A stretch of DNA of 23,353 nucleotides from IMG/VR virus record IMGVR_UViG_3300027127_000025, positions 1 through 23,353 of that record; one strand, 5' to 3'. The notes beneath the pieces are model-generated. The model saw nothing but the letters and a program-made list of their open reading frames with translations. It searched no databases and was not told the origin of the DNA. Below are positions 4,731-21,687 of the stretch, one piece after another; position 1 is the stretch's first letter, and the number at the start of each line of letters is the position of its first letter. The DNA comes from a virus. The translations under genes and the position numbers were made by a program.

Positions 4731-5023
4731 TGTCTAGTAATTTTTAAATATTTAAGATATTGACGCTTGGCTATACTTTCACTTGAATAGGGGCCGTAGC
4801 AAAAATTTTTACTATTGTTCCAAAAATACCAACCATTGCCAGTCCCAACAAAAAGTTGATCATCAAGACCGTCGTATATTCTTTCAATAGAGTCGCACCA
4901 GCATTGAGTTTTGCCGGGTCTTACAATGTGCAAGCCGCAATCAGCGTCAAGTTCGCATTTGTGCCAGACGTTGCCAAAGCCATCGTCTAATTTATTTTGC
5001 TCGTTCGAATTCGCCTTGCTCAT
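4727..5023 (-). CDS. small Cys-containing hypothetical protein
   Basis: 98 aa, family not recognised. Five cysteines (about residues 23, 29, 42, 44 and 75) and the segment GKTQCWCD suggest a metal site or a compact fold, but the spacing does not match a classic zinc finger. The second half is rich in Trp, Tyr and Gly and ends in a basic helix. It overlaps the deaminase-like gene by 32 bases and the glycosyltransferase gene by 4. Confidence 0.6.
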   Translation of the reverse strand: MSKANSNEQNKLDDGFGNVWHKCELDADCGLHIVRPGKTQCWCDSIERIYDGLDDQLFVGTGNGWYFWNNSKNFCYGPYSSESIAKRQYLKYLKITRQ

Positions 5024-5369
5024 TTGAATAGAATATTTCTTTGAAAGCTACGTCTTTCAACAATTTTTGACAATATTTGCAAGGTTTTCCCATAGCTATT
5101 TTATCATTCCTGTCAATACGAAAGGTAACTAAAGTGTGCTTGGTGTGGTCAATTCTGCCAGATTTGATTACCGCACAAGCCTCTGCATGAAGCCCGCTTC
5201 CATCAAAGTACCCGTACTTTTGATTAATTGGATGAGATTTTTTGGAGTTTTTCCCAATTGAAATTATCTTGTTCTTATTCAAGACAAAAGCAAAGTGCCG
5301 ACACCGTAGTTCAATGTCGTCGTAGATAATAAGATTTCTTGCAAGCTGCACAAGTCTTTCGAACTTCAT
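4992..5369 (-). CDS. cytidine/deoxycytidylate deaminase-like zinc protein
   Basis: 125 aa from the chosen ATG. The zinc-deaminase signature is complete: His61-Ala-Glu63 (LHAEACAV; Glu63 as proton shuttle) and Pro96-Cys97-x2-Cys100 (GKPCKYC). Upstream, KNSKKSHP resembles the N-x-K-T-H-P element of phage and riboflavin-type deaminases. It probably deaminates a free cytosine nucleotide or nucleoside to feed dUMP/dTMP synthesis. Base- or RNA-editing-type activity cannot be excluded from sequence. The frame could start at a TTG at 5405 or an ATG at 5387, but the ATG at 5369 has a GGGGG SD-like run just before it and places the family core at the usual distance from the N-terminus. It lies just downstream of the GNAT-like gene. 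Confidence 0.65.
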   Translation of the reverse strand: MKFERLVQLARNLIIYDDIELRCRHFAFVLNKNKIISIGKNSKKSHPINQKYGYFDGSGLHAEACAVIKSGRIDHTKHTLVTFRIDRNDKIAMGKPCKYCQKLLKDVAFKEIFYSNEQGEFERAK

Positions 5370-5401
5370 CCCCCAATGGTAACACATTTTAAAGAGTTCT
5401 G

Positions 5402-5881
5402 TCAATGCTTTTTGAAGCCTAAAATGACAAAAAGCTCATTTTCATTTAAAACTTCGCTAAAACCAAAAAACTTAGAGAAATTTAAATATTTTTCAAAATT
5501 CTTTCTGCGCTTGAGGGCTTTAATAAAAATAGATTTAAATTTTAAAGATGAAATAAGTTTTTTAAATTCGTTGTACATCTCATGTCCAGCAATGATGTTT
5601 GGGTCCATAAGAACTAAAATTTCTGCTGAAATGTTAGTCTCAGGCTGTATTATAATAGCACCAAAGACTTTATCTTTATTGTCTTTATATACAAAAGAGT
5701 ATTTAATGTTTTCTAAAATTAAATTTTTATTTTCCTGCAAAAACAAAGAAGGTGATTCAGTTTCGCTTATTCGAAAAGAAGATTGCGTTTTTACAGCAAG
5801 CCTTAGTACTTCATTAGCATGAGTTTGCTCCATTTTAACAATAGAGAAACTGTTAATTTTTATTTTGTTTTTACCTGCCAT
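5402..5881 (-). CDS. GNAT-like N-acetyltransferase (weak)
   Basis: 159 aa. The order of elements resembles a small GNAT fold: an N-terminal helix after MEQTHANEVLRLA, a strand YSFVYKDN, the central strand KVFGAIIIQ (residues 71-79), a helix after a Gly-His (GHEMYNEFKKLI) and a C-terminal FSKFFGFSEV like the common 'FY-x3-GF' end. The acetyl-CoA pyrophosphate loop is not canonical, so the activity is uncertain. It is the first gene of the leftward operon and faces the tail gene L across only 32 bases. An alternative start is Met17. Confidence 0.4.
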   Translation of the reverse strand: MAGKNKIKINSFSIVKMEQTHANEVLRLAVKTQSSFRISETESPSLFLQENKNLILENIKYSFVYKDNKDKVFGAIIIQPETNISAEILVLMDPNIIAGHEMYNEFKKLISSLKFKSIFIKALKRRKNFEKYLNFSKFFGFSEVLNENELFVILGFKKH

Positions 5882-5913: not shown

Positions 5914-7425
5914 ATGTCAAGGGCTTCTAATCAAAAAGTTAATGCGGAGCTTTTCTCGCTGGAACCAACAGCGTTGTTAGAGTTTTTTGTTATTTACTAT
6001 GATTATATTAATACTCCAGATGATAAATTATACATTCATGGCGGTACAAATGGCATAAACGGTTCGATTTATTGGCAGGGAATAGAATATTTACCTTTCC
6101 CTATTCAAAGTTCTGGTTTTGAAAGTAAAGGCGACGGTTCGTTGCCTAGACCCAAGCTGGCAGTCTCAAATCAAGATTTTTTCGTTTCTAATTTAATTCG
6201 ACGCTATAATAATTTAGTTGGTGCAAAAGTGGTAAGAAAAAGAACTTTTGCAAAGTTTTTAGATAATCAAAATTTTTCTGACAACAAAAACCCCTACGGT
6301 TCTGCTGACGCTACTGCTGGATTAGAAGATCAAGTATTTTATATTCTTAGAAGAGCAACTGAAAATCGTGCAGTTGTTGAGTTTGAATTATCTTCTCCTT
6401 TAGAAATTGAAGACGTAACATTCCCCAAGAGATCTGTAATTGCAAGATACTGCGGTTTTCACTATCGCGGCAATGGATGCAAATACATGGGGCCACCAGT
6501 TGCTGACGAGAATGACATGCGTTTAAGAAAAGCTGTTGATTTTAAAGCGGGGCTTTTAAGAAGATATTATACAGGAACAGCTGCGGGATATGCTAGTGAT
6601 CTTAGTACAATGACGACAAAAATTGCAAATTCTACATTTAGTTCTGAAACAGTTCTTTCAAATACAACAGTAGAAAATGCAGAAAATATTGCTCATGAAT
6701 TTATAGGATATTTTAAAGTAAATGCAAATGAAGCTGGTGTTTATGAATTTGGACTTGATCCTGACGATAGCGCGGACTTATTTATAGATGGAAACAGAAT
6801 TGCATACTTTTATGGTGGCAGGGGTCAAGCAGGTTCTCCGACAGGAACAACAACTTCTACTCTTTCGTTGTCCGCAGGGTATCATAGAATTTTGATCAGA
6901 CATCATGAGTACACTGGAGGACAAGGCGTAACTTTATACTATAAGCCGCCTCCAATAACTGGGAGTTCAACTTGGGAGGCTGTACCGGCATCAAGATTTT
7001 ACTATGATGTTTTAGAGCAAAATACTTTAACTTCTAGTCAAAGATTTTATTCAAATTCCCAGTTAAGTTCTTCCATTCCTCTCGGCAACAACGCTTTGTT
7101 GGATGGATTAAATAGAGGCTTGTGGAAAGCAAATGCTGGAGTTTATAAAGTTGGAGAGTTCGTTTATATCGAGAATCATAATGTTAAAGTTGCCAAAAGA
7201 GACATAAATGCAATTCCTAACTACACCCCTCTTTTAAGATTTTATGTTTGTGTCAAAACTCATACGGCAAGCGGCGTAAGAAATCCTTCTTTCAATAAAG
7301 AATACTGGGTTTGCGACCAATGCTCTAAAACCCTTAATGGATGTAAACTAAGATTTGGATCTGGTGATTATTTACCTTTCGGTGGATTTCCTGGTGTAGA
7401 GGAATATTCAGTTTCTTCACAATAA
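5914..7425 (+). CDS. tail-tip protein L-like with inserted PA14-like domain
   Basis: 503 aa; lambda gpL is about 232 aa. Residues 1-200 follow the L family: ALLEFF near the start, a Trp-Gln-Gly-x-x-Tyr strand, GDGSLPRPKLAVSN, and ARYCGFHYRGNGCKYMGPPVAD. In lambda L four cysteines bind an iron-sulphur cluster. The same spacing is seen here as Cys180-x8-Cys189 and Cys470-x6-Cys477, with an additional Cys467. Between the pairs lie about 280 extra residues. One part is a PA14-like domain (about 213-362; GVYEFGLDPDDSADLFIDG and LSLSAGYHRILIRHHEY). The other is an aromatic CBM5/12-like module (404-466; W-x5-VY-x-VGEFVY ... FYVCVKTH ... YW). The protein should form part of the tail-tip ring; the insertions probably face outwards. 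A strong SD (AAAGGA) precedes the ATG. Confidence 0.8.
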   Translation: MSRASNQKVNAELFSLEPTALLEFFVIYYDYINTPDDKLYIHGGTNGINGSIYWQGIEYLPFPIQSSGFESKGDGSLPRPKLAVSNQDFFVSNLIRRYNNLVGAKVVRKRTFAKFLDNQNFSDNKNPYGSADATAGLEDQVFYILRRATENRAVVEFELSSPLEIEDVTFPKRSVIARYCGFHYRGNGCKYMGPPVADENDMRLRKAVDFKAGLLRRYYTGTAAGYASDLSTMTTKIANSTFSSETVLSNTTVENAENIAHEFIGYFKVNANEAGVYEFGLDPDDSADLFIDGNRIAYFYGGRGQAGSPTGTTTSTLSLSAGYHRILIRHHEYTGGQGVTLYYKPPPITGSSTWEAVPASRFYYDVLEQNTLTSSQRFYSNSQLSSSIPLGNNALLDGLNRGLWKANAGVYKVGEFVYIENHNVKVAKRDINAIPNYTPLLRFYVCVKTHTASGVRNPSFNKEYWVCDQCSKTLNGCKLRFGSGDYLPFGGFPGVEEYSVSSQ

Positions 7426-7787
7426 TGCAATCAATAATTGAACATGCAAGTAATTCTGAATTAGAAGTTTGTGGATTTGTTTTTGTTGAAAACGGAGATT
7501 TAAAAACAGAACCTGCAAAAAATATAGCGGTTTATGCGAATGATGTATTTGAAATTCATCCGTTGGAAATTCTAAGGCACATCAGGAGTGGTAAACTCGC
7601 TGCAATTTATCATACCCACCCAACCTCAACAGAACAAGAATCAACATTTGATCAATTCAACTGCGAAAACTCTTGCATTCCTTACATTATTTATAGCAAA
7701 GAAACTAAAAAATTTAATTTGTTGCTACCTAAAAAATCACATGTAAAACAAGAATATGTTGAGATACTAAAGAAAAAATATGACTAA
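7425..7787 (+). CDS. tail-tip assembly protein K-like, JAMM (MPN+) peptidase domain only
   Basis: 120 aa. The complete JAMM zinc-peptidase signature is present: Glu14 (LEVCGF), then His63-x-His65-Pro-x6-Ser73-x2-Asp76. Lambda gpK pairs such a domain with a C-terminal NlpC/P60 domain; here that second domain is absent and the protein stops soon after the JAMM fold. In lambda the protein acts in tail-tip assembly and may cleave cell-wall or tail components. The gene starts within the L stop codon (TAATG) and overlaps the next gene by 8 bases, keeping the lambda order L-K-I. Confidence 0.8.
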   Translation: MQSIIEHASNSELEVCGFVFVENGDLKTEPAKNIAVYANDVFEIHPLEILRHIRSGKLAAIYHTHPTSTEQESTFDQFNCENSCIPYIIYSKETKKFNLLLPKKSHVKQEYVEILKKKYD

Positions 7788-10416
7788 TGTTTATCTATAC
7801 GGAGAATTGCGAAACAAATTTGGCGAAGAATTTAAATTCAATATAAATTCTGCTAAAGAGGCTTTGCTCGCAATCAATGCTAATAAAAAAGGGTTTTTAG
7901 ATGAAATAAAGAAGTTGGCAATGAAGGGGGTCCATTATAGAATGGTGATTGATGATGAGGTTGTTCAACACCCCAAGGAAGCGGAGATTCAAAAAGCTCC
8001 AAATGAAATTCATATAGTTCCTATTGTTTGGGGAGCAGGGAAAAATGGTATGGCAATAGGAATGATAGTGCTTGGAGCGGTATTGGTCGTAGCTACGGGA
8101 GGACTCGCGGCAATTGGAGGTCCAGCAGCAATGGGAGCTTTCGCGGCAGGAGGTTCTTTAGCTGGAGTTGCAAGTACAGTAGCAATGATTGGTGCATCCA
8201 TTGCCATTCAAGGAGTCATGTCTTTGCTAACCCCTAAACCAAAAGCGGATTTTAATCAAGAAGTGCAGGCTGGCGGTAAATCTTATTTATTTGGAAATAA
8301 ACCGGCAAACACATCTCAAGGTCAAGCAGTTCCAGTTGGGTATGGTAGATTAAAGATTGGAAGCTCTCAAATAAGTGCAAGCACAGATCACTATGCTTTA
8401 GCAACTGATATTAAGCAATTGATGACTCCTGTTGATAAACCAATCAATGAATATGTTGAGCTAGTAGCCGATGACGAAGCTGCACCAGCCGGTGCTGTAG
8501 AAGACATGTTCAGCACCAATCAAGCTGTTGACATGGATGACACTACTACATTTTATACCGTTAATGTTTTAAATTCTTATATTGATATTGTAACAAATAG
8601 TGCAGATAAAGTTTTTTCTAATCCTGTTGAAGTTGTAGTCAGAAAAAATGGTGATATAGTTTCTAATCCAGATTTAACAACTTATGATGATAATATAAGT
8701 TATGAGTGGGAAGAATTAAGCAATGATAGCTCAAAGGGCAAAGTAAAAATAGAAAATCCATATACAGTTAAATCAGGTCTTCTTGTCAGATCTTATCATA
8801 TTCCAGATTTTACAGTTCAGTCTATTTTCACTGGATTGAAAAGCAGTCAAACTGGATATTTTCAAAAATATTCTCAAGGTGATTTAGTAAAGTTTGGTCC
8901 GTCTCAATTTAATAATTTGAAATTTGCAACTTGGGACACTGGTTATAATTATTTCAGCGGAGAACTTGTAAATTATCCAACAGGCAGTCCTGCAACTGAT
9001 ACATATTTTCAAGCAATAGTTAGTACAGGATTTTCTGGTCAATTGCCAACTGGCGCTGGAAATACCATAAACTCAACATGGTGGAGAAAAATCTTACCGC
9101 CAAATCTTGAGTATTTGTATAAATGCGTACCTGCCAATGGTGTTTCTGGCCACTTACCGACAACAGGAGAAATTGCTGGTGGAGCGCCAGTTGCAGAATC
9201 AACATTTTGGACTAGAGTTGAAACTCCCACTACTACAGCAGAGATGGATACTTTATTCTCTGACTATCCAGCCTACGAAGATAAAAATCAATATACTTAT
9301 GTTGATGCAATAGACAATGTATACGAAGGCAAAATAAATGGAACTACAGCAAATATTGATAACTATGGGATGGAGTTTCTTGGTTATTTTTATGTGCCGA
9401 CAGTTGGCGGCGATGGCAAAAGTTTCATAAAAGATGTTTTTGAAGTTGGAACAGGCACTGGATTGTACGAAATTATTAAAATTGGAGATACGGGACAATG
9501 GAGTGGTTTAGGATTTACTGGACTAGGTGGAACAGCTATACCTCCAAGAATAGGCTCAACATTTTATAAAAACCAAACGCAAGGAACTGGAAATGGCAAA
9601 ATAATGCCAGTAGGCGCATATGAATTTAAACTTGATTCTGACGATGCTTCAGATTTATATATAGATTCTACTTTGGCTAGTGCATATTATAGCGGCCATG
9701 CAATGTTTTCTGGATTTGCAAATCCGCCTTGGATCAGTCAACCAAGCAGTGCTGAAATTTCTGGACTTCATTCTTCTACCACAACATTGTATTTAACTGC
9801 TGGCTATCATCGCTTACTAGCAAGGCTGCAAGATTTAAGAGGTAGCGAAGGAATTAGTTTGTATTATAGATATGACACTAACAGAGATGGAGTATTTTCA
9901 GATTGGCAACTCGTACCAAAAGAAAAATTATTTCATTCCGTTTCTGACCTGACGACACCAAAGACTCAAAAGTTTTCTGATATAGGCAAAAGGGCTTTAA
10001 TTGTAGGTGCCACTGTAGCTGGAGAAAGATATAAAATAAAAACTGTTGGAACTACAAATTGGACATCTATTGGATCGGCAATTGCTCAAGTTGGAGCGGT
10101 TTTTGAAAGAAATTCTACAGCTATTTCTGGCAGTTCTCTCCAACAAGTTGTAGAAGATTTTATAACTTATTCTGAACAAAAATCAGCTGAATCAAATAGA
10201 ATTGCTAGATTTATATCTGAAAGACCTTTGGTTAAAGGGCAAAGAACAACTGGATATTCATTTTATAAAGCTAGATATCGATGCAAGGTTACTGTAAATA
10301 ATAGAGATATCTATTATTCCGCTCCAGTTAAAGTGAATATTAATTTCTTATCAACGCCTACAAGATTTAGAGGAGTTTCGACTCCAGAATTAAGCCAAGC
10401 AGTTCAAACGGCATAA
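7780..10416 (+). CDS. tail-tip assembly protein I-like with very long modular extension
   Basis: 878 aa, against about 220 in lambda gpI. Residues 1-84 form the ubiquitin-like N-terminal domain (VYLYGELRNKFGEEF; EIHIVPIVWGAG). Residues 89-150 are a Gly/Ala-rich hydrophobic stretch, and 165-200 carry the family's C-terminal element (SYLFGNKPANTSQGQAVPVGYGRLKIGS). The rest is extra. It has a CBM5/12-like module (384-435) with a second half-copy (445-480), and a PA14-like domain (about 534-718) interrupted by a 'Y-x-I ... W' module at 562-612. A second 'Y-x-I ... W-x2-IG' module is at 747-790, followed by a final beta-rich segment. This protein probably contributes receptor-binding surface as well as assembly function; that is inference. 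It overlaps J-N by TAATG. Confidence 0.75.
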   Translation: MTNVYLYGELRNKFGEEFKFNINSAKEALLAINANKKGFLDEIKKLAMKGVHYRMVIDDEVVQHPKEAEIQKAPNEIHIVPIVWGAGKNGMAIGMIVLGAVLVVATGGLAAIGGPAAMGAFAAGGSLAGVASTVAMIGASIAIQGVMSLLTPKPKADFNQEVQAGGKSYLFGNKPANTSQGQAVPVGYGRLKIGSSQISASTDHYALATDIKQLMTPVDKPINEYVELVADDEAAPAGAVEDMFSTNQAVDMDDTTTFYTVNVLNSYIDIVTNSADKVFSNPVEVVVRKNGDIVSNPDLTTYDDNISYEWEELSNDSSKGKVKIENPYTVKSGLLVRSYHIPDFTVQSIFTGLKSSQTGYFQKYSQGDLVKFGPSQFNNLKFATWDTGYNYFSGELVNYPTGSPATDTYFQAIVSTGFSGQLPTGAGNTINSTWWRKILPPNLEYLYKCVPANGVSGHLPTTGEIAGGAPVAESTFWTRVETPTTTAEMDTLFSDYPAYEDKNQYTYVDAIDNVYEGKINGTTANIDNYGMEFLGYFYVPTVGGDGKSFIKDVFEVGTGTGLYEIIKIGDTGQWSGLGFTGLGGTAIPPRIGSTFYKNQTQGTGNGKIMPVGAYEFKLDSDDASDLYIDSTLASAYYSGHAMFSGFANPPWISQPSSAEISGLHSSTTTLYLTAGYHRLLARLQDLRGSEGISLYYRYDTNRDGVFSDWQLVPKEKLFHSVSDLTTPKTQKFSDIGKRALIVGATVAGERYKIKTVGTTNWTSIGSAIAQVGAVFERNSTAISGSSLQQVVEDFITYSEQKSAESNRIARFISERPLVKGQRTTGYSFYKARYRCKVTVNNRDIYYSAPVKVNINFLSTPTRFRGVSTPELSQAVQTA

Positions 10417-11309
10417 TGAAAATTTTAAATCCATACAGATTTTATAGAGGAAGCAGCAGTGGGAAACAAAATAATAAGGTTCCTTCTCTTACTCCTCCAA
10501 GACCTCAAGATTTAAAAAAATCCATATCAATTGCAGAAATTGTCGATTTACTTTGCGAAGGTCCGATTTATGGCTTGGTTGATCAATTTGGCAAAAAAGT
10601 TTATGGCTTAGACATGTTAAAGGGAGTCTATTTGAATAAAGTACCAGTTATGAATTATGATGGTAAATATAATTTCCGAAATGTTGTTATGGAAATTAAT
10701 TTGGGAACAGAGAATCAAAAGCCATTGGCTAATTTTAGTAATGTTTTCATTTATAAACCAGCTAGTTTTAGATTACTAGGGCCGGTAAATGTTCCAAGTG
10801 ATCAAAGTGTTGGTGGATCTAATGACGTAAGAGATGGGAAAAGTTTTACAAACTGGGCGCTTGGCTATCCAACAGATGTTAGAGATCCATTCACATTTGT
10901 TCATCATATAAAAAATAAAGACGTAAGAAAAATTAGAATCAGTTTAATTATTGAAGCTCTCAGCGATACAGTTGATAAAGGTTCTGCTCCTGGTGAATCT
11001 GGCGATCTGGGTATGCAAAAACCAACAACAGTTGTTATCGCTGTTACACACGGTATCGAAGGTACAAGAAAAGTCACAACAAAAGAATATCCTATTACTG
11101 GAACAGTAACTTCTCCTTACGCTTACATGTTAGGTGAACCAGTTTCGCAATCAACTAGAATAGGTTCTGGAGCAGTGACTTCAAGCGGAGGAGCGACCAC
11201 AACTACAAGCGCAACTCCAAGTTCTGGGGGTGCATCACCTAGACTACCTGGTTTAACCGCAGGTCAAATAGAAGCCGCTCAACCCTCGGTGCCTATAAAT
11301 CAACCATAA
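10416..11309 (+). CDS. central tail-tip (J-like) protein, N-terminal part as a separate ORF
   Basis: 297 aa. Residues 33-110 match the start of lambda gpJ: ISIAEIVDLLCEGPIYGLVDQ, then VYLNKVPVMNYDGKYNFRNV and EINLGTENQKP. Later, DVRKIRISLIIEALSDT and the segment ending GTVTSPYAY correspond to the early beta domain. The last 60 residues (Ser/Thr/Gly/Pro-rich, ending in PRLPGLTAG ... INQP) look like a disordered linker. In other phages the frame would continue into the main J body. Here it stops at TAA (11307-11309), and the next parts are in other frames. Confidence 0.75.
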   Translation: MKILNPYRFYRGSSSGKQNNKVPSLTPPRPQDLKKSISIAEIVDLLCEGPIYGLVDQFGKKVYGLDMLKGVYLNKVPVMNYDGKYNFRNVVMEINLGTENQKPLANFSNVFIYKPASFRLLGPVNVPSDQSVGGSNDVRDGKSFTNWALGYPTDVRDPFTFVHHIKNKDVRKIRISLIIEALSDTVDKGSAPGESGDLGMQKPTTVVIAVTHGIEGTRKVTTKEYPITGTVTSPYAYMLGEPVSQSTRIGSGAVTSSGGATTTTSATPSSGGASPRLPGLTAGQIEAAQPSVPINQP

Positions 11310-11324
11310 TTATAAATTTATAAT
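11309..11324. repeat. 16-bp perfect palindrome at the first J junction
   Basis: ATTATAAATTTATAAT is its own reverse complement. It begins at the last base of the J-N stop codon and runs into the first two bases of the next ATG. There is no SD in the 13-base spacer. It could be a protein-binding or recombination site, or simply AT-rich spacer that keeps the start open. Confidence 0.5.
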
Positions 11325-11889
11325 GCCATTAGAAAAAACATATCAAGAGCTTTTGGCCTCAAAGATAAACCCAAGAAACCCTTCTGCGGTTTTACCTGTT
11401 ATTTATAATTTAAGAAAAAAGTCTTTTGAGCCTTACGTTCCTACAGCAACAAATAGAATTATATTTTCTCCTGGTGTTGTGGGGGATGGAGCAACTGCGG
11501 TATTTGATGTTATTAGTCCTACAAGTTATACGAGAAGTCAAACTATTACTTTGTCTGGCACGGCAACTTATATATTAACAGATGGTACTACGTCTTATAC
11601 AAAAGCAGCTACTAGTATAGTAGCTCAAATAGATGTTGGAATAACAAATGAAAATAGAAATTTAATTGGATATCAGCAAAGAGTTTTAGCTTCTGAAATA
11701 GGAGACAATGGAGTATTTTCTTTTACAATTTCAAGTGAAATTATGGAGAAATTAAGTATCGGCACTCATTATGTTTATATTGATGCCGCTTCTCCTGATA
11801 ATGCGCCAGTTAGACTTTCTGCAAGCAGCACGCCTTCAAATCCAACTGATCCACTTTACTATACAAGAACCTTTACAATAACAGCATAA
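11323..11889 (+). CDS. tail-tip accessory protein between the two J parts
   Basis: 188 aa, no direct family recognised. After a short helical start (LEKTYQELLASK) it is rich in Thr, Ser and Val and looks like one or two immunoglobulin-like beta domains (TITLSGTATYILTDG; HYVYIDAASPDN; YTRTFTITA). It lies exactly where lambda J would run on from its N-terminal region to the 'LP-x-...-RYVIVEKRTAET' segment. It is therefore probably a structural decoration or connector of the tail tip. No SD is present; the start follows a 13-base AT-rich spacer. Confidence 0.65.
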   Translation: MPLEKTYQELLASKINPRNPSAVLPVIYNLRKKSFEPYVPTATNRIIFSPGVVGDGATAVFDVISPTSYTRSQTITLSGTATYILTDGTTSYTKAATSIVAQIDVGITNENRNLIGYQQRVLASEIGDNGVFSFTISSEIMEKLSIGTHYVYIDAASPDNAPVRLSASSTPSNPTDPLYYTRTFTITA

Positions 11890-11905
11890 ATTTTATTATA
11901 TATAA
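11890..11905 (+). promoter_or_regulatory. AT-only spacer before the main J ORF
   Basis: The 16 bases are all A or T (ATTTTATTATATATAA) and hold no SD. With the following ATG they form TATAAATG, close to the T4-type late -10 TATAAATA, but a start from it would fall inside the coding region. An unstructured initiation region is more likely than a promoter. Confidence 0.25.
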
Positions 11906-14900
11906 ATGGAACCGAACTCTACAGATCCAGATGAAGGCACAAGCAGCAGTGTTGATACCAATGTGGTTTCTCAGGCAACTTTACGCAATTCAAATGAAAT
12001 TGAATTATTGCCTTCTGAAAATGGCAGAGACAGGTATGTTATAGTAGAAAAAAGAACTGCTGAAACAATTTCTCCTTTAGTAAAAAAAGAGGTCGTATTA
12101 GATGGTATTTACGAAGTAATAGATAGAAACTTTTCATATCCATATGTAGCTCACGTTGGTATGAAATTTGATTCAAGAACATTTGGTAACATGCCAAATA
12201 GAGAGTTTGATGTGAAAATGAAGAAGGTAAAAGTGCCTTCTAATTATTTTCCTATTGGTGGAGATGGTTTAGACAGAAGATATGTCTTTGCCAATCCAGA
12301 TTATCCAGCAAACCCAAATAGTCTTGACGTTATATTCATGGTTGATCAAAACATGAATGCTCAAACTAAAGCTTTGATAAGAAGAAATTTGCAAGAAATG
12401 ATCTTCAAATTAGTTGCTGGATATACTAATATAAGATTTTCTATATGGCAAACGGCTGCATCGGGAACTAATACGGTCGTAAATCAAGCAACCAATGAAA
12501 CTATAGTTGGATTTACATATTATAATACGGCCTCGTTTGCAGAAATGGAAACTCCAGATTCTGCTGGAGCAAATCAAACAAATTTATTTAAACAATTAGA
12601 CACTGCTCTAAGCACAGCCCAATTAAGTCCAGCAACAAATCCTTCCGAAACTAATATTGCCAATTTCTTTTTAAGAAAAAGTCAATTCAGTATAACTGAT
12701 GAAGTAGGCAAGCTGTCAGAAGAAACCGTTCTTCAAAATCTTTGGAAAAATACAGTAAGAAAAGTCGTTTATTTTTCTGGATCAACTCCAGAAACGATGA
12801 GTTCCGAAACTTATCAAATTCTCTTGAACAGGGCAAGAGAAGCTGGAATTCAATTGTATTATTTAAATACAGACCCTGATCGTTCTGGGACAAGAACTCT
12901 CAGAGAACTCGCAGAAGACACTGGTGGTGCAAAATTTAATTTACTTTACGATTCTGATTCAAAACTACAACAGTTTTGCAATACAAACTTTTACGACAGT
13001 AATAAAATTTATTACGGAGATTGGGACGGTACTTTTAAAATTGCTTGGACAGATAATCCCGCATGGATTTTGTATGATATAATTACAGACTTTAATTATG
13101 GTTTGGGCAATTATATTGATTCCTCTTCTGTTGATAAATGGACTTTGTATGATATTGGTAGATACTGTGACGCTGTAGATGATGATGGCAGATTTAGAGG
13201 CGTGCCTGATGGTAAAGGAGGTCTTGAGCCAAGATATACATGTAATATTATTTTCTATAATAAAGATGAAGCCTATAATGTATTAAAAGATATCGCAGCA
13301 ATATTTAAAGGAATTATCTATTGGAATACAGAAGGCTTTTCTTTCTTCGCTGACAAGAAAAAAGAGCCATTGGTTTATTTTGCAAATACTAACGTTAAAG
13401 ATGGTTTATTTAGCTATTCTGAAACCGCAAAGAATAAAAGATATACTAGTGTAGAGGTAACTTATAATGACAAATTTGATAATTATAAAACTAAAGTCGA
13501 ATTTGTCGAAGACGTTGACGGAATTTTAAATTATGGTTTGAATCCTTATAAAATAAATGCGGCTGGATGCACTTCACGATCAGAAGCTAGAAGAATAGGA
13601 AGATATGCATTAACAAGCTCTATATACGAGACAGATACAGTTACCTTCACTGCTGGATTAGAAGGCGCGTATTTACAACCTGGCGATGTATTTGGTATCA
13701 GCGATGAAATAAGAAACGTTGGCAGATCATTTGGTAGAATATTAGAAGTCAATGAAACAGCTAAAACAATTAAAATTGATGGTGAGTTCAACACTGGTTT
13801 AGACTCTGGAGTTTACATCCATGTGCCATCTGGTAATTTTTCTCTCTCCGATTTAAATTCTTTAACTGGAAGTGACGGTGGATTTACCGGAACTCTTGAA
13901 CAAATTAGAGCCAGAAGACAAAAACAAACTAGAAAGTTTAATATTCATACGGTCACAGACGACACATATGGGGCCACTTTAACTTTAACTGGAGATTTCT
14001 TATTAAAATCAGGTATATTTGATGTTTATGCGCTTGAAAATAGAACTACAGGAGCTTCTTCAACGTACACGGGTATAACAACATTAACTGGTGTAGTTTA
14101 TAACTTTCCTCCGCATACCGTTGTAAATGGAAATCCAAGGTGGGATACTTTGACTTTCTCTGGCATTTCTGGAGTGCTTTCTAATCTTGAAATAGATATT
14201 GATTTTTCTGGAGACGCTGGGACTGGATTATTAATATCTGCCTCAACCCCAAGTTGGGAAGGAATTATAACTGGTTTTAATAATATTAATTCAGACAGTG
14301 GAGATTTTGCTTGGACTGTCGCATCTGAAGGAAGATTAGAGTCTTATAACTCAGCTGTTATTTATAGATACAATAGTGGAGGCGCTTATGAGGCGTCTAA
14401 CTTATTAGGCAATATTAATAGCATATGGTCTAACCCTGTTTATACTAACGCAAGTACTGGAGATGTTGTTATTGCTGTGTGGCCAAGTGGAACACTAGAT
14501 TCTACAACTCCAAATGCAATATGGTCAACCGGATACGCAGCAACAGAAGTATTCAAATTGGGATTAGATACAAATACTAGCAAAGATAATTGCTTATATT
14601 GTGTCGCGCTAATTAAAGAAGGTTATCGTTTACTTGAAGCTGGTAGCAAAAGAGGTTTAGATTATCCTGGTATAAAATTTAATTATAGAGATTTGTTGGC
14701 TTATTCTAAGTTACGTCCATATTATACTTTTGTTCAAGCTGATTTCGGAAGCAGAGCAGAATCTATTTATGAAGATTGGAAATCTGGCAGAGATTATTCT
14801 GTTGGAAATATTGTAAAACATTATTCCGATACATATATCTGCACAAGATCTCATAAATCTTCTGAATATTTCAGCGAAGATTATTTAAATTCATTTACAA

Positions 14901-17900
14901 GGCAATGTGATATTGAAGCTGGAAATAAAAATATCGGATTAACAACTCAACATATCTCTGAGCTTGGTGGCGTTGCTGTTGGCATGTATGTAGCTGGTGC
15001 TGGAATTCCAGCAAATTCAAGAATAAATAGCATAACCGACGATCCAAGTAGCATTACTTTTCATATCGATAAAGATCCAACTGCTACGGCTAATAATGTA
15101 ACAGTAACTTTTTCAAGCAGATTAGTGGGAGGCAACAGCTCATCTGCATCAAAATGGACTAGAGGAAATGAGGAAGGATATTATTCAGTTGGCTTGCCAA
15201 AAGATTTTTATGGTACAGGTAAAATTCCTTTAACAACACCTTTAACATCTAGTCTCGTATCTGGCGCATTTACTGCCCTCGGATTAGAAGTTTACGTTGG
15301 CACTGGAACTTTAGGACAATCGGATTTAAGATTATTACCAGAGTCTAACGGAATTGGATATAGTGGTTTAGTTTACGGCACTGGATACCCCAAAGGCGTT
15401 TATAGTTTAACTGTAGACACAAATCCTCAAAATTTAGATTTAATAAACGAAGGTTCTCTGTATGTTTTAAGCGGATCTGGAGTTGAACCAAAACTTTATA
15501 AAACTATTGCGAATAAAGAAGAAGAGGCTAACCAGTACGCTATTGTTGGCATAGAGTATTTAAACAATAAAGATGATTATATTGAAAAAGATATTTTAGA
15601 TACCTCTCCAAGTTATTACGTTCAAGGGCCATACGATGTGGTTATAAAGCCTAATCCACCATCTGGAATACAAAGCATAAGTGGTATATCTGGAGCAACA
15701 AAATATACTGGTATTCAAGTGATATGGTCTGGAACAAACAGTCCAATTACCGGCTATAAAGTTTATGTTAGCAGGCCAGATTATTCAACAATAACAAATG
15801 AAACAGACGCGATTGTAGAAAGCTATACCATTCCTTCTGGAACGCATACATTAACCATTCCAATAACAGGTTCAGACGGTAATGATATTTGGGGCCAATA
15901 TGATTTTAAAATATATTCGCAAGGCACAACATACAAATTACTTTGCACAGATCCGGTAGAAACTGGAATTGTTATGCTGCCTTCTGGTAATTTAAAGATT
16001 AACGGAACTAACGCATTAACTTCTACAATTCCAAGTGGATTTACAATTGATACAGCAGATCAAGACTCTGTAAAATATTCGATTGGTTATGCTGGTGGCA
16101 CTTATACTGGAAATGGTAGAGGGAACTGGACTTCAAAAGATTTAGTTTTTAGATGGAAATACATTGATCCAACGGGCGGCAAAATGACAACTAAAGAGCA
16201 GATCTACGAAAATCCATTTGTTGATTTGCCTCAAAAAGTAACAGTACAGGTTTTAGATTCTGCTGGTCAAGTCTTAAAAGAAGAGAAGAATTATCAAGGG
16301 CTATCTTATAGAATAACACAAGCCGATAATGCTGCAATGTTTGATAGCTCGACTACTCCAGATTTTGTAGAGTACTCAAGAGAAATAGGATTAAGAGTTA
16401 TTGTTACTGACAACACTAATTTGTCTAAAACAGGCACCTTCCAAGCAGTAAATCAATACCCTGGTTATTCTAAAATACAAGTCATAGACTCTTATCAAAA
16501 CTCTCCATATTATATTCTATCTGGATATTATGGAAATAGAGGATTTACTGGATTGGCTGTTTGGAGTCCTGACGTAGCAAGTACAATTGGGGCTATAACA
16601 ACAATTTCTGGTTCTGGGGTAAGAGATGCTGACGGTAATTTAATTAGAAGCGAAAGCGAAGATGTTCCATTAACATTCAGAGATATCTCTGGGGCATTTT
16701 CAACCGCTACATTCTACAATGGCACTGGATTAGCGGTAGGTACTAGAGCGGCGGTTTCAATTAATTTTAAAGGAACAGGCGAGCCTGATTATGAAAAATA
16801 TGTTTATGCTTATGATGATTTAAAAGATCATTATGAAAAATATGTTGATAAATCAATTTCTGTATCACAATGGGGTGCGGATCACTATTCTTCCTTCGGT
16901 CAAAGTGAAGGAAGAGAAATTCCAACAAAGGAAGGAAATCCGCTAGGTATTTGTAACCTTCACGATATAAATCCAGCAACCCAGCCAAATAAAACAGGAT
17001 TTTCTGGCATTGCATTCACAGTATTACCAGAAGACGTTTCAAAGGGTAAGATAATATTTAATTGCTTTAACGCCACTTCAAATAAAGATGTTTTCAGTGT
17101 TGATGTATATACTGGAGTTGGCTATACTGATATTATAAATCATACCGAAATGGAAGAAGGTAATTGGTACGAAATCGTTACTTTAGGCAGCAGCGTGAAT
17201 TGGAGAACTATAGGTCATGATTCAAATACTCCAATATTAGGAAGCGAATTGGAATACAATGGAGAAACAATAGCTGGATCAAGTGCGACCGTAAAAAGAG
17301 TATTTAAACCTGATTTAGTTAATCATACTAATCTCTTTGGGGCGGTTTCTTTAACAGAAACAAGAAGTTATTTGAATGTGATTACTCTTGGAGAAAGATT
17401 GCCTACGGGACAATGGTTATACTTTAGATTCAGACCTTGGGACGACTATGGAGCAGGTTTTACTTCTAAAGTTGTAAGCGGATATTTAGAAAGAGAGCCA
17501 ACAGAAGTTACATCTCCAATTGCAAATAGATATAACTTAGACGGAGGTAGAAATGAAAACGAACTTATCAGTATTCCTGGTAATACTCTAGTTAAAAACT
17601 ATAAATACAGAATAGAGCAATTAGGCAATCCAGAAATAAACTGGGTCACAATTGGAGCAGATTCGGCTACTTTAAATTCTGAATTTATATATAACGGAGA
17701 AACTGTGTCTGGAGGTGGAACTACAATTGGTAAAGTTAAAAGAGTAGAAATTCCCTACGTTGTTCCAGAAAATCAAATAAATTCAACTAATCTTGTAACA
17801 CCAAGAACAGATTCTTCGCTTGTATTGCCCACCGATATACAAGAAGGAAGCTCAATCATTCTGGTTAATAGAAGTCTTGAACATAACTTATACGTTGAAG

Positions 17901-18010
17901 ACAGCAATGGAAATCAAATCTCTATAATCAGGCCCAATGAACGAGCCGAGATTATTAGAGATGATGTTGAATGGAGAGACGACAGAGGCTCCGTTCTATC
18001 GCTTGAGTAA
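11906..18010 (+). CDS. central tail-tip / host-specificity protein J-like, main body with VWA-like insertion
   Basis: 2034 aa. Residues 31-115 (IELLPSENGRDRYVIVEKRTAE; PYVAHVGMKFDS; VKVPSNYFPIG) and 367-600 (YYGDWDGTFKIAWTDNPAWILYD; GLEGAYLQPGDVFGI) are the conserved gpJ core. Between them, at 139-355, sits a Rossmann-like domain of von Willebrand A type: LDVIFMVDQNMN at 140-151, NQTNLFKQL, VRKVVYFSGS and GIQLYYLNTD. Its metal site is degenerate (D-x-N-x-N instead of D-x-S-x-S; no Asp in the third loop). Further along are a CBM5/12-like module from about 956 holding a 'GMYVAGAGIPA' module, an FN3-like domain (about 1251-1350), a 'HYSSFGQSEGR' module (about 1629-1674), two 'Y-x-I ... W-x2-IG' modules (about 1748-1800 and 1896-1951) and a beta-rich end. 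The variable C-terminal half should determine host recognition. It ends with TAA directly abutting the nrdB stop. Confidence 0.85.
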   Translation: MEPNSTDPDEGTSSSVDTNVVSQATLRNSNEIELLPSENGRDRYVIVEKRTAETISPLVKKEVVLDGIYEVIDRNFSYPYVAHVGMKFDSRTFGNMPNREFDVKMKKVKVPSNYFPIGGDGLDRRYVFANPDYPANPNSLDVIFMVDQNMNAQTKALIRRNLQEMIFKLVAGYTNIRFSIWQTAASGTNTVVNQATNETIVGFTYYNTASFAEMETPDSAGANQTNLFKQLDTALSTAQLSPATNPSETNIANFFLRKSQFSITDEVGKLSEETVLQNLWKNTVRKVVYFSGSTPETMSSETYQILLNRAREAGIQLYYLNTDPDRSGTRTLRELAEDTGGAKFNLLYDSDSKLQQFCNTNFYDSNKIYYGDWDGTFKIAWTDNPAWILYDIITDFNYGLGNYIDSSSVDKWTLYDIGRYCDAVDDDGRFRGVPDGKGGLEPRYTCNIIFYNKDEAYNVLKDIAAIFKGIIYWNTEGFSFFADKKKEPLVYFANTNVKDGLFSYSETAKNKRYTSVEVTYNDKFDNYKTKVEFVEDVDGILNYGLNPYKINAAGCTSRSEARRIGRYALTSSIYETDTVTFTAGLEGAYLQPGDVFGISDEIRNVGRSFGRILEVNETAKTIKIDGEFNTGLDSGVYIHVPSGNFSLSDLNSLTGSDGGFTGTLEQIRARRQKQTRKFNIHTVTDDTYGATLTLTGDFLLKSGIFDVYALENRTTGASSTYTGITTLTGVVYNFPPHTVVNGNPRWDTLTFSGISGVLSNLEIDIDFSGDAGTGLLISASTPSWEGIITGFNNINSDSGDFAWTVASEGRLESYNSAVIYRYNSGGAYEASNLLGNINSIWSNPVYTNASTGDVVIAVWPSGTLDSTTPNAIWSTGYAATEVFKLGLDTNTSKDNCLYCVALIKEGYRLLEAGSKRGLDYPGIKFNYRDLLAYSKLRPYYTFVQADFGSRAESIYEDWKSGRDYSVGNIVKHYSDTYICTRSHKSSEYFSEDYLNSFTRQCDIEAGNKNIGLTTQHISELGGVAVGMYVAGAGIPANSRINSITDDPSSITFHIDKDPTATANNVTVTFSSRLVGGNSSSASKWTRGNEEGYYSVGLPKDFYGTGKIPLTTPLTSSLVSGAFTALGLEVYVGTGTLGQSDLRLLPESNGIGYSGLVYGTGYPKGVYSLTVDTNPQNLDLINEGSLYVLSGSGVEPKLYKTIANKEEEANQYAIVGIEYLNNKDDYIEKDILDTSPSYYVQGPYDVVIKPNPPSGIQSISGISGATKYTGIQVIWSGTNSPITGYKVYVSRPDYSTITNETDAIVESYTIPSGTHTLTIPITGSDGNDIWGQYDFKIYSQGTTYKLLCTDPVETGIVMLPSGNLKINGTNALTSTIPSGFTIDTADQDSVKYSIGYAGGTYTGNGRGNWTSKDLVFRWKYIDPTGGKMTTKEQIYENPFVDLPQKVTVQVLDSAGQVLKEEKNYQGLSYRITQADNAAMFDSSTTPDFVEYSREIGLRVIVTDNTNLSKTGTFQAVNQYPGYSKIQVIDSYQNSPYYILSGYYGNRGFTGLAVWSPDVASTIGAITTISGSGVRDADGNLIRSESEDVPLTFRDISGAFSTATFYNGTGLAVGTRAAVSINFKGTGEPDYEKYVYAYDDLKDHYEKYVDKSISVSQWGADHYSSFGQSEGREIPTKEGNPLGICNLHDINPATQPNKTGFSGIAFTVLPEDVSKGKIIFNCFNATSNKDVFSVDVYTGVGYTDIINHTEMEEGNWYEIVTLGSSVNWRTIGHDSNTPILGSELEYNGETIAGSSATVKRVFKPDLVNHTNLFGAVSLTETRSYLNVITLGERLPTGQWLYFRFRPWDDYGAGFTSKVVSGYLEREPTEVTSPIANRYNLDGGRNENELISIPGNTLVKNYKYRIEQLGNPEINWVTIGADSATLNSEFIYNGETVSGGGTTIGKVKRVEIPYVVPENQINSTNLVTPRTDSSLVLPTDIQEGSSIILVNRSLEHNLYVEDSNGNQISIIRPNERAEIIRDDVEWRDDRGSVLSLE

Positions 18011-19066
18011 TTAGAATTTAATATCAAACACTGATTCGTCGATCTTGCTATCCACGCCTTTAACGTAAGAAGAAATCTCAGTCTCCTGTGGGGCGACTTG
18101 AATCTTCTTGCTATCATAGAAGCTATCTAACCATCCAGCAATAGGATTGCCCTTTGCGTTGTATAGCTTCTTGTATCCCATAGAAGTAAGACGATTATCA
18201 GCAAGCCACTCAACATAATGCTTGAGCGAATCAGCGGTGAGACCAATTAAACTACCCTTTGAGAAAAGGTAATCGGCCCAGTCTTTTTCTGCATCCACGG
18301 CCATACGATAAGCCTCGTAGATACGATCTTCATTCTTCTTAAAGATATCTTGGAAGCCTTCCTTTGGCTGATCACGGAGAATCTTCATGATGTTCTGAGT
18401 GATTGCAACGTGAAGGTTTTCGTCACGCGAAATTAAATTAATAATTTTAGCGTTTCCTTCCATCTTTCCGCGATATCCAAAGTAAAACGAGCAAGCGAAT
18501 GAAACATAAAAAGTTACCCCTTCGGTGATCTGAGTTGAAAGGAGTGCATCGAAGATTTGCTGCCTTGGGTCATTGCTCTTGGTATTAAGCAAAGCGTCGT
18601 ACTTATTGGAAATAAACTGCGCCCTCTTGACGATCTCCTTGTCATCTAAAATAGAGTCGAAGAACTTTGTAGCATCAGGATGGACGTTCTGCAAGATATA
18701 TGTATAACTATTGCTATGAATAGTTTCAAAGAATGACCAAACATTCATGCAGATCTCAAGTTCTGGATTACTGACGTAATCAGAAAGAGAGTTAATGCTA
18801 CGGGATAGCATTGAATCTGTCATAGTTTGGAAGCGAAGATTACTATCAAAAACAAACTTCTCTTCTGGAGATAGATTCTTATAATCAGCTGCATCCTTAG
18901 TAAGATTAACTTCCTGTGGTCTCCAGAAGAAATTAATCTGCTGATCGTAGAGATCATAGAACTTGGGATACTTTAAACGATCATATCTTTGGATCGCCAA
19001 ATCTTCGCCAAGGAAGAGCGGTTGTTTAAGTGAGTCCACGTTTACAGTGTTGAGTACAGTTTTCAT
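18011..19066 (-). CDS. nrdB: ribonucleoside-diphosphate reductase class Ia, beta subunit
   Basis: 351 aa, close in length and sequence to E. coli NrdB (376 aa). It houses the di-iron centre and tyrosyl radical that drive NDP reduction. Visible residues by alignment from memory are Trp48, iron ligands Asp61, Glu114, His117, Glu181, Glu215 and His218, and the radical Tyr121 in ETIHSNSYTYIL. FYVSFACSF and MEGNAKIINLISRDENLH are nearly identical to the cellular enzyme. The C-terminus ESVFDIKF is the acidic-aromatic peptide that docks on NrdA. With the radical Tyr and a full iron set, this is an ordinary class Ia subunit rather than a radical-less form. No SD is visible. It lies 4 bases after a small ORF that separates it from nrdA. 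Confidence 0.95.
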   Translation of the reverse strand: MKTVLNTVNVDSLKQPLFLGEDLAIQRYDRLKYPKFYDLYDQQINFFWRPQEVNLTKDAADYKNLSPEEKFVFDSNLRFQTMTDSMLSRSINSLSDYVSNPELEICMNVWSFFETIHSNSYTYILQNVHPDATKFFDSILDDKEIVKRAQFISNKYDALLNTKSNDPRQQIFDALLSTQITEGVTFYVSFACSFYFGYRGKMEGNAKIINLISRDENLHVAITQNIMKILRDQPKEGFQDIFKKNEDRIYEAYRMAVDAEKDWADYLFSKGSLIGLTADSLKHYVEWLADNRLTSMGYKKLYNAKGNPIAGWLDSFYDSKKIQVAPQETEISSYVKGVDSKIDESVFDIKF

Positions 19067-19070
19067 ATTA

Positions 19071-19334
19071 TTACATGTAGTTTCTACTGCGATCTTTTCG
19101 TCCTCCTGAGTGGTGAGGTCTATTAGTTCCTTGCCACATTTTCCATTCTTTAGTTGTAGGGGCTTTTAATTTCTTTTTTTGTTTTTCCGCCTCTAAAAGC
19201 CATACTGGTTTGTAAAGATCAAAAAGTTGATTAATATAGTTATCGTCAGCCGTTCTAGCTGATTCATAACCTTTATTGATAAGCCACTTTCGCTTTCGCG
19301 AAACACTGGCATTAGAGAGAAATTTATAGTCCAT
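19071..19334 (-). CDS. small basic protein between nrdA and nrdB
   Basis: 87 aa from the ATG at 19334 (a TTG at 19349 would add five residues but lies inside nrdA). Not recognised. It is strongly basic, with RKRKW near residue 15, a helix with KQKKKLK at 51-57 and a C-terminal GGRKDRSRN tail, as expected for a nucleic-acid-binding or RNA/ribosome-associated peptide. The ATG is 2 bases past the nrdA TAA, and nrdB begins 4 bases after it, so the three genes should be co-transcribed and coupled. No HNH or GIY-YIG motif is visible, so it is not an evident homing endonuclease. Confidence 0.6.
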   Translation of the reverse strand: MDYKFLSNASVSRKRKWLINKGYESARTADDNYINQLFDLYKPVWLLEAEKQKKKLKAPTTKEWKMWQGTNRPHHSGGRKDRSRNYM

Positions 19335-19336
19335 TT

Positions 19337-21637
19337 TTATAAGGTGCAAGCTCCACCAGCGCAGCCTTGGGTGTCGTCTTGCGGTTCTTCGGTTTTTGTT
19401 TCTTGTTTAATTTCTTGTTTTGTATGTAAAGCGGTTTGAGTGTCGCCGTCAAACGTATTTGTGTAGTAAAGATTTTTAATTCCGTACTTATAAGCCAGCA
19501 TTAAGTCTCCAACAAGTTCTCCTTGGCTTGGAATTTTATTTTGATAACGAGTGGCGTTATAATAAAGATTAGTTGAAATACTCATGTCAACAAATTTTTG
19601 AAGAGCAGCGACTACCTTCAAATACCCCTGATTATTGGGCATTTCAAACGCGAGGGTATAATTATCCTTGTTATTTTTGATATGGGGGACCACAACTGGG
19701 ATAACTCCAGCCTTTGAACGCTTATAAGAAATCAAAGAACGAGGAGGTTCAATCCCGTTAGTCGATGATTGAATAACAGAGCTAGACTCAACAGGCATCA
19801 AGGCAGTCAAGGTACTGTGACGCATACCGTGAGTTTTAATTTGCTTTCTAAGCTCTTCCCAATCACAGTGCAGTTTCTCAGTGACAAATTCATCAATATT
19901 CTTGCAATAAGTATCGATTGGCAGAATAGCTTTTGAGAACTTTGTTTCAGAAAACAAGGCGCATGGACCCTTTTCTTGAGCCATCTTAACTGAAGCCTTG
20001 ATGAGATTATAACTCACAAGCTCCATGATAGCGGCGGCTTTGTTGGCGGCATTCTTGTCGGTATACTTGACGCCAATATTAGCAAGATAGCCAGCAAGAT
20101 TAGTGACGCCAACCCCAAGACTGCGGCGATTCTTTGCAAAATTTGCAGCAGCAGGAACGAAATAGTTTTGATGATCAATCAAAGCGTCAAGCATACGAAC
20201 AATAATTTCGCATACAGGCTCCATCTCGTCCTTTACAACCTCAAGAAGATTAACGGCAGATAAGATGCAAACGCCGATTTCTCCATTGGGATCATTCAAG
20301 TCCTTGATAGGCTTGAGCGGATGATTGACCTCAAGGCAAAGATTGCTGGTATCAACTTGGGCATTCCAAGAACCATGCGAGTTTGCATGATCAACGTTCA
20401 TCAAATAAATGCGACCAGTTTCTACACGCTCTTTAGAGAACAAAAAGAAAAGATCACGCGCATTAATTGTCTTTTTAAATTTAAGGCTCTTGTTCTTTTC
20501 TGCCGCTTCATAAAGCTCCTTGAATTCTGGCATACCAAAGCTATTCCAAAGCTCTGGGACTTCGTGATAAGAAAATAAAGTAATGCTTTCATTCTTGACC
20601 AGACGATCATAGAATGTACGATCAAATCCGATGCAATAGTCGAGTTTGCGAACTCGGTTGTCGTCTGTGCCAGCATTATTTTTTAATACAAGAATATCCT
20701 CAATATCATGATGGAACCAAGCCATGTTTACTGTTGCAGATCCACCGCGAATACCATTTTGATGACAAGACTTAACGGTAGATTCAAACATCTTTAAAAA
20801 GGGAACAGGTCCAGTATGGCTAACCATGCCGCCCTTAACAGGTGCATTAACTGCACGGAGACGACTTGCGTTAATACCGATACCGTAACGATTTGCGGTA
20901 GCAAATCCAATGGCGCTATTATTCGCAAAGATAGAGTCAAGAGAATCGTCTACACTAAACAAAGCGCAAGACGCATAAGATTTGAGGGTAGTTCTCACTC
21001 CAGCCATAATAGGAGTGGGCAAATTAATTTTGTGCTGGCTAAAATAATTATAAGCCTTCTTGATATAGTTGGTCCGCTCTCCCTTATAGTCCTTAAATAA
21101 GGTCATTGCAATGAGCATATAAGCAAATTGCGGGGTTTCATAAAGCTTCTTATTAGTTCTATTCTGAACTAGATACTTTTCGCAAAGCTGCTTAATACCA
21201 GCGTATGTGAAATTAAAATCACGATCATGACGAAGGCATTCATCAAACTTATGGAATTCACGATCATCATACCATTCAAGAATGGCGGGATCATAAACTT
21301 TATTTTTAATATTATCTTTTACGAAATCAATAAGTTTTGGGGCATTCTTGCCTCCCCAAACTTCTTTACGCAACTGGTAATTTAAAAGACGAGAAGCAAC
21401 ATACTGATACTGAGGCTTTTCTTCGGAAATGAGTCCAGCCGCAGCTTCAATTAATGTGTTGTGGATATCTTTAGAGGATATTCCATCAAAGAAAGAAAGG
21501 TTCGCATTCATCGCGACTTCCTCAAAAGAGGTATCGTGAATTCCAGTGCAAGCCCATTCTAAAACTTTGTTAATTTTATCGGCGTCGAACTTTTCAATTT
21601 CTCCGCTTCTCTTCTTAACAGTCATTAATTTTTTCAT
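19337..21637 (-). CDS. nrdA: ribonucleoside-diphosphate reductase class Ia, alpha subunit
   Basis: 766 aa from the ATG at 21637. It reduces ribonucleoside diphosphates with NrdB. Residues 5-90 are a single ATP-cone (MTVKKRSGEIEKFDADKI; LISEEKPQYQYVA). Active-site residues by comparison with E. coli NrdA are Cys224 (SYASCALF), Asn432/Cys434/Glu436 (NLCLE), Cys457 (GVCILSAVNL), radical-transfer Tyr724-Tyr725 and the C-terminal swinging cysteines 759 and 764 (GCAGGACTL). The linker before the tail is longer and more charged than in E. coli. The frame could extend 12 codons to a TTG at 21673, but family alignment and a promoter that would start transcription near 21653 favour the ATG. Neither start has an SD. 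Confidence 0.95.
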   Translation of the reverse strand: MKKLMTVKKRSGEIEKFDADKINKVLEWACTGIHDTSFEEVAMNANLSFFDGISSKDIHNTLIEAAAGLISEEKPQYQYVASRLLNYQLRKEVWGGKNAPKLIDFVKDNIKNKVYDPAILEWYDDREFHKFDECLRHDRDFNFTYAGIKQLCEKYLVQNRTNKKLYETPQFAYMLIAMTLFKDYKGERTNYIKKAYNYFSQHKINLPTPIMAGVRTTLKSYASCALFSVDDSLDSIFANNSAIGFATANRYGIGINASRLRAVNAPVKGGMVSHTGPVPFLKMFESTVKSCHQNGIRGGSATVNMAWFHHDIEDILVLKNNAGTDDNRVRKLDYCIGFDRTFYDRLVKNESITLFSYHEVPELWNSFGMPEFKELYEAAEKNKSLKFKKTINARDLFFLFSKERVETGRIYLMNVDHANSHGSWNAQVDTSNLCLEVNHPLKPIKDLNDPNGEIGVCILSAVNLLEVVKDEMEPVCEIIVRMLDALIDHQNYFVPAAANFAKNRRSLGVGVTNLAGYLANIGVKYTDKNAANKAAAIMELVSYNLIKASVKMAQEKGPCALFSETKFSKAILPIDTYCKNIDEFVTEKLHCDWEELRKQIKTHGMRHSTLTALMPVESSSVIQSSTNGIEPPRSLISYKRSKAGVIPVVVPHIKNNKDNYTLAFEMPNNQGYLKVVAALQKFVDMSISTNLYYNATRYQNKIPSQGELVGDLMLAYKYGIKNLYYTNTFDGDTQTALHTKQEIKQETKTEEPQDDTQGCAGGACTL

Positions 21638-21659
21638 AAAAAGTAAAATAGGGTAAAAG

Positions 21660-21687
21660 ATATTACATATCAAACAGGAACTGCCAA
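21660..21687 (-). promoter_or_regulatory. candidate promoter for the nrd genes
   Basis: On the minus strand, TTGGCA (21687-21682, one mismatch to the -35 consensus) is followed by a 16-base spacer and TAATAT (21665-21660). This would place the transcription start near 21653 and give a leader of about 16 bases before the nrdA ATG at 21637. Its -35 overlaps the hairpin at 21684-21701. The match is moderate and untested. Confidence 0.35.

Follow-up and report, generated by a model that had tools for sequence, protein, structure and literature searches.

A lambda-type tail-tip J gene divided into two reading frames, with a third protein encoded in the break, in a phage clade widespread in metagenomes

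Introduction

The tail tube is closed by the J hub, which has to open upon receptor contact. In phage lambda the FNIII-A domain and the HDII insertion of this hub touch the plug protein gpI and shift when the hub opens. The lambda FNIII-A domain comprises J residues 72–215 and is inserted between the HDII-insertion strands 65–71 and 216–223 (PMC10721106). The lambda hub is already spread over three chains, gpL, gpI and gpJ (PDB 8iyk and 9e7m; PMC10721106, PMC11101478), and a hub subunit in general may comprise a single polypeptide or up to three, as in lambda (PMC13243795). T5 pb3 and other one-chain hubs contain the same hub domain set (PMC10721106). In RcGTA the HDII insertion is shared between two chains, gp13 and gp15, as it is between L and J of lambda (PMC10721106), and gp32 of Salmonella phage Jersey, a gpJ-like protein, carries an additional Ig-like domain, HDII-ins3, in its N-terminal finger (PMC13243795). 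J was a single open reading frame in 17 isolate or prophage-type records that we examined (lambda, Silvergun, Cr-LKS4, ANB28, Mannheimia 1152AP2, KS9, Torfinnsbu, ES18, Jersey, Henu5_1, Mcat9, MT836303, RHph_TM16, PMBT3, JWF, EAb13 and 5371), and a J cut with a third protein in the break was not described in the literature searched. Here we describe such an arrangement in a viral sequence of 23,353 nt, referred to as the window; all coordinates are those of the whole window, with position 1 as its first letter.

Results

The plus strand of the window carries a tail-tip cluster of the lambda type (Table 1). The gene order L-K-I-J of lambda is retained, with the L-like gene starting at 5914, the K-like gene at 7425 and the I-like gene at 7780, followed by JN, MID and JC, where JN and JC are the two reading frames with homology to J and MID lies between them. 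The stop codon of the I-like gene overlaps the start of JN (TAATG), and across relatives the I-JN junction is always near TAATG. An earlier note, made on this DNA from the letters alone, had described the three reading frames as a J gene split in three successive frames; its coordinates, its frames 3, 1 and 2 and its two AT-only spacers of 13 and 16 nt were all confirmed when the sequence was checked.

Table 1. Coordinates of the tail-tip genes and of the segments of JN, MID and JC in the 23,353-nt window
Feature	Position	Strand	Evidence or remark
gpL-like hub protein with inserted PA14 domain	5914–7425	+	PF05100 E 9e-55; PF07691 E 2e-6
K-like protein, 120 aa	7425–7787	+	JAB domain only
gpI-like protein, 878 aa	7780–10416	+	phrog_32 E 2e-39 over aa 1–203
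JN ORF, 297 aa	10416–11309	+, frame 3	ATG start, TAA stop
JN core, aa 1–242: N-terminal peptide MKILNPYRFYRG, HDII-insertion strands, first two thirds of FNIII-A	10416–11141	+	phrog_1727 E 3e-16; phrog_31 E 1e-14; dN/dS 0.04–0.26
JN C-terminal tail, aa 243–297: S/T/G-rich, gapped, variable; linker	11142–11306	+	dN/dS 0.26–1.3; alignments
Spacer 1, 13 nt, A/T only, TTATAAATTTATA	11310–11322	+	between JN and MID
MID ORF, 188 aa	11323–11889	+, frame 1	ATG start, TAA stop
MID aa 1–48: conserved putative anchor, helices 7–15 and 20–34	11323–11466	+	AlphaFold2; dN/dS 0–0.23
MID aa 49–188: predicted Ig-like beta-sandwich	11467–11886	+	AlphaFold2 model; structure comparison
Spacer 2, 16 nt, A/T only, ATTTTATTATATATAA	11890–11905	+	between MID and JC
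JC ORF, 2034 aa	11906–18010	+, frame 2	ATG start, TAA stop
JC N-terminal tail, aa 1–29, polar	11906–11992	+	
JCa, aa 30–118: last third of FNIII-A, HDII-insertion strand, HDII	11993–12259	+	lambda J ~165–249, Prob 100; dN/dS 0.03–0.12
Insert in JC, aa 119–362, vWA-like at best	12260–12991	+	between lambda J 249 and 250–254
JCb, aa 363–640: HDIII/HDIV part of J, Phage-tail_3	12992–13825	+	PF13550 E 3e-23; phrog_31 E 2e-114
JC remainder, aa 641–2034: C-terminal fibre/adhesion	13826–18007	+	weak fn3 and CBM_5_12-like segments, below curated cut-offs

Extra modules seem to be loaded across the whole hub of this phage. The PA14 domain of the L-like protein occupies positions 6550–6963 (E 2e-6) and a weaker PA14-like segment lies in the I-like protein at about 9598–9807. 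Lambda I has 223 residues, and the I-like protein is four times that length. In the K-like protein the NlpC/P60 half of lambda gpK seems to be absent. Elsewhere in the window, NrdB and NrdA (ribonucleotide reductase, with ATP-cone and barrel) with a small gene between them lie on the minus strand at 18011–21673, the nearest relative of NrdB being a cyanophage NrdB at 46%. A cytidine/dCMP deaminase-like protein just below the Pfam cut-off (4992–5405) and a DUF5843 protein (435–950) are also on the minus strand, in a cluster where most of their neighbors have no family.

Relatives were found in IMG/VR with MID, JN and insert profiles and were ranked by similarity. The order I-JN-MID-JC is kept in at least 114 contigs from 94 metagenomes, extending to about 45–50% identity in JN, and all three genes are present in at least 89 contigs, in the same order in 89 of 89. 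Among the matches listed (114 contigs, 89 of them with all three genes) there was no fused JN/JC reading frame and no contig with room for MID yet without it. An unsplit J would be detectable by this approach, because the same HMMs report one fused reading frame in a Pasteurella prophage (L145); relatives were ranked by similarity and the best matches listed, and a more distant unsplit relative could therefore have escaped. The clade is widespread in metagenomes and absent from 50,697 isolate phage records, and no prophage or host genome match was found for it.

Sequencing or assembly indels in a single J gene could produce such pieces, and records of this kind do exist. One contig (L023, 1166–4420) has JN in three frames and is interrupted by several frameshifts, located in JN, in the insert and in JC, which are probably sequencing errors and show what an artefact looks like, and in Pseudomonas phage PACT201 (PP931175.1, L220; 2003–3647) the "central tail fiber J" is given as three short pieces, probably in an error-rich record. 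In the present case, however, several other assemblies have identical joints: contigs L002–L005 are 100% identical to positions 10001–12400 over 2400 nt, gap-free and with both joints included, and L013 and L019 are likewise 100% identical over the portion of 10001–12400 that they cover. Diverged relatives share the break, with a real stop, spacer and ATG and with differing spacer lengths, and an unrelated 188-residue gene occupies it. Indels that fuse the frames were looked for, and no fused form was seen in several assemblies of the same sequence or in about 100 diverged relatives. The relatives already refute the indel explanation, to which we give practically no credence. All of about 90 relatives have the arrangement, and the split is therefore real and old, has become fixed in a phage clade and does not stem from sequencing error.

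In 55 distinct junction pairs, stops and starts are conserved at both joints. The JN-MID gap ranges from -1 to 21 nt, the MID start overlapping the JN stop in some relatives. Between MID and JC there are 10 to 19 nt, and 391 nt in L014. The gap lengths modulo 3 are distributed 28/16/11 at the first joint and 42/10/3 at the second, and all three relative frames are seen at both joints across lineages. Purifying selection acts on the JN core, on MID and on JC, with dN/dS mostly 0.03–0.3. The JN tail is near neutral at 0.26–1.3, as would be expected of a linker beyond the domain end. This dN/dS pattern is that of three proteins with a loose linker following JN, and does not fit gene decay or slippage.

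Programmed frameshifting, ribosomal bypassing or an intron would offer another route, by which the three reading frames would yield a single long J that contains the Ig-like domain internally, and the pieces do lie in J order, separated by short spacers and one frame step apart. This is opposed by the variation of spacer length and frame relation with lineage, by the lack of a conserved slippery site, by the conserved ATG that each reading frame has of its own and by the JN tail, which is under almost no constraint, as a domain joint that is translated through would not be; no Rfam intron or other element was found. Because frame relations differ among lineages, no programmed frameshift joins the genes, and recoding as a whole is highly improbable. 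The earlier note proposed genuinely distinct chains, the insert being one of them, and this is supported by the conserved stops and starts, the variable spacing and frame, the selection on each reading frame and the nearly unconstrained JN tail. The three successive frames that it emphasised are incidental, since other lineages have other frame relations. On the two sides of the breaks, where it had placed disordered linkers, the JN tail is S/T/G-rich and variable, and the JC start is polar and is replaced in six contigs.

The AT-only composition of the spacers was described correctly, but it is not special: it is ordinary for this phage, because a Shine-Dalgarno-like motif was found at just 4 of the 20 starts checked in the window. 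Spacers free of a Shine-Dalgarno sequence were considered as a special signal and rejected, as starts without this sequence are usual here. A promoter-like element, TTTACA-16-TATTAT, lies within 11872–11905 and ends 6 nt upstream of the JC ATG, and it could yield a leaderless JC transcript; in relatives spacer 2 is 95% AT, with ATAAT or TATAA in 46 of 54. The promoter scan as a whole did not rise above shuffled sequences.

In HMM-HMM comparison with a profile led by lambda J, JN matches J residues of about 6–174 (Prob 99.3) and JC residues of about 165–588 (Prob 100), and in the alignment to lambda J no part of the J content is missing across the pair and hardly any is doubled. Each protein is homologous to gpJ (phrog_31, PF13550) in its N-terminal and hub regions. 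The J family matches of JN cover its first 110 residues and those of JC are strong (Table 1), and the solved relatives of JCb are 9l9p, 25vf, 9e7m and 8iyk. Hub and fibre do not share one chain as in gpJ, JN and JC being separate reading frames in 89 of 89 contigs listed. The JN and JC pair is J by descent, and neither alone is a whole J. MID has no match to J, either in the same HMM-HMM comparison or in J family searches, and its interpretation as a displaced piece of J was rejected for lack of a match to the J profile. The split reported in the earlier note is thereby upheld but not the three pieces, as there are two J pieces and a MID without J homology; its unrelated beta protein between the pieces lacks a J match and has a predicted Ig-like sandwich.

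As aligned to lambda J, the break falls within FNIII-A, at a loop flanked by "..GTVTSPY" and "..EIELLP", and on this lambda-based alignment FNIII-A would therefore need two chains to complete it. JN might instead be a left-over start of J that now serves as a small tail protein in its own right, with JC alone making the hub, and the similar start peptides on JN and JC in some lineages would suit such an origin. JC, however, lacks the initial strands of both the HDII insertion and FNIII-A, and JN keeps exactly that missing part, with dN/dS of 0.04–0.26 and in all contigs, so that we regard this explanation as improbable.

The 240-residue insert of JC (12260–12991) is present in all of the at least 101 contigs that cover the region. 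It carries the vWA-like sequence LDVIFMVDQN and matches PF00092 weakly (E 0.014, in 1 of 10 members), and where a vWA domain has the metal-binding motif DxSxS it has D[QK][NK][ML]. A vWA domain in a tail tip was not found in the literature searched.

In six contigs (L014, L082, L096, L091, L094 and L108) JC starts with MK[IM]LNP.RF..G, a copy of the JN start (MKILNP.RF..G), and within the loci examined this peptide occurs solely at JN and JC starts. In L014 the two copies differ just at synonymous sites over the shared peptide. The six rows occupy three places on the JC tree, one of which is the first branch of the clade, the basal fork being weakly placed. An old duplication of the J 5' end is the simple reading to which this 12-residue peptide points: the end would have been duplicated around an inserted module, with the N-terminal third retained in the upstream copy and the remainder in the downstream one, and the start peptide of JC would later have been lost in most lineages. 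Alternatively, a useful docking or start peptide was gained repeatedly, and three separate changes on the tree also fit.

The AlphaFold2 model of MID, built from 35 diverse sequences, has a mean pLDDT of 82, compared with a poor earlier model from 10 sequences (pLDDT 56). Residues 1–48, with the motif KT.EE..A.KI.PRNYS..L..IY, are the most conserved part of the protein. For the remainder, the best match in VIA-align is to a 94-residue beta-sandwich domain (Z 9.5, rmsd 2.5 over 93 residues), followed by Ig, FNIII and PKD folds at Z 7–8.5, and in the model it is a sandwich of 7–8 strands of the Ig-like/FNIII/PKD type, an assignment of fold and not of family or function. Ig-like sandwiches occur in non-adhesin proteins too. 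Foldseek with the model returned no whole-protein match at high TM-score, searches with MID of PHROGs, Pfam and PDB sequences gave nothing convincing, and MID was found in none of the 50,697 isolate phage records. The sandwich varies more than the helical part, with dN/dS up to 0.45; in L012 it contains insertions, and in L014 a domain is added to it. In the latter contig (5208–6637) MID reaches 350 residues through a further beta domain and is followed by an extra reading frame of 129 residues before JC. The interval between JN and JC takes up new modules, as in L014. The helices are probably a tip anchor and the sandwich an exposed module.

MID could also be absent from the virion and assist the split hub as an assembly factor or chaperone that is made where and when JN and JC are. 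Its strict co-occurrence with the split in the contigs listed, its very conserved helical N-terminus and its want of a known homologue would all agree with such a function, but the sandwich is the more variable part and bears insertions and an extra domain in L012 and L014, as would sooner be expected of an exposed module that binds a surface than of a chaperone, and we consider a role confined to assembly unlikely, if worth keeping in mind.

Discussion

The reading that we prefer, with a probability of roughly 0.7, is that the lambda-type hub has been divided between two chains and that MID is a third tip subunit at the FNIII-A finger; assembly of these in the virion is deduced from the genes. 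JN and JC would fold together as one gpJ-type hub subunit, in which JN would supply HDII-insertion strands and about two thirds of FNIII-A, and JC the rest of FNIII-A, the closing HDII-insertion strand, HDII to HDIV and the fibre, such that FNIII-A and the HDII insertion would each be a two-chain domain. MID would dock on the tip via its conserved helical hairpin and display the Ig-like sandwich near the FNIII-A finger, taking the place of a domain that in other phages is inserted in the chain itself, and may serve as a surface-binding module, probably for glycan or envelope. The stop-start overlap or very short gaps between the genes could provide near-equal amounts of the proteins by translational coupling. 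A fuller version is tentative, and we would not yet bet on it: a five-chain hub in which two chains together complete FNIII-A and MID, as a separate Ig-like adhesin, docks at their joint, in a slot that can be re-equipped without disturbing the hub frame, as with the longer MID and the extra reading frame of L014, and with an N-terminal docking peptide shared by JN and JC.

If both domains are indeed formed from two chains, covalent continuity of J is not required for tip closure or for relay of the trigger. The arrangement is also an example of how a module can be added to a tail tip without in-frame insertion, the chain being broken at an exposed loop. The clade is missing from the 50,697 isolate records, and current annotation of lambda-type tips therefore misses the split arrangement.

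Compared with lambda, the window proteins are homologous along the HDII insertion, FNIII-A and HDII to HDIV and share the gene order, whereas J is cut in FNIII-A into two genes with MID added in the break, JC has the 240-residue insert and L and I carry extra domains. There would be five chains in the window phage, compared with three in lambda. T5 pb3 and the other one-chain hubs differ in having their domain set on a single chain. The RcGTA split lies between L and J, whereas that of the window is inside J, within FNIII-A. In Jersey gp32 the Ig-like domain is within the J chain, whereas MID would be a separate protein. MID has no sequence match to an alignment that includes Jersey gp32; by analogy, it is nevertheless plausible that the gp32 domain is the same-chain counterpart of MID, and the position of the MID gene fits this comparison.
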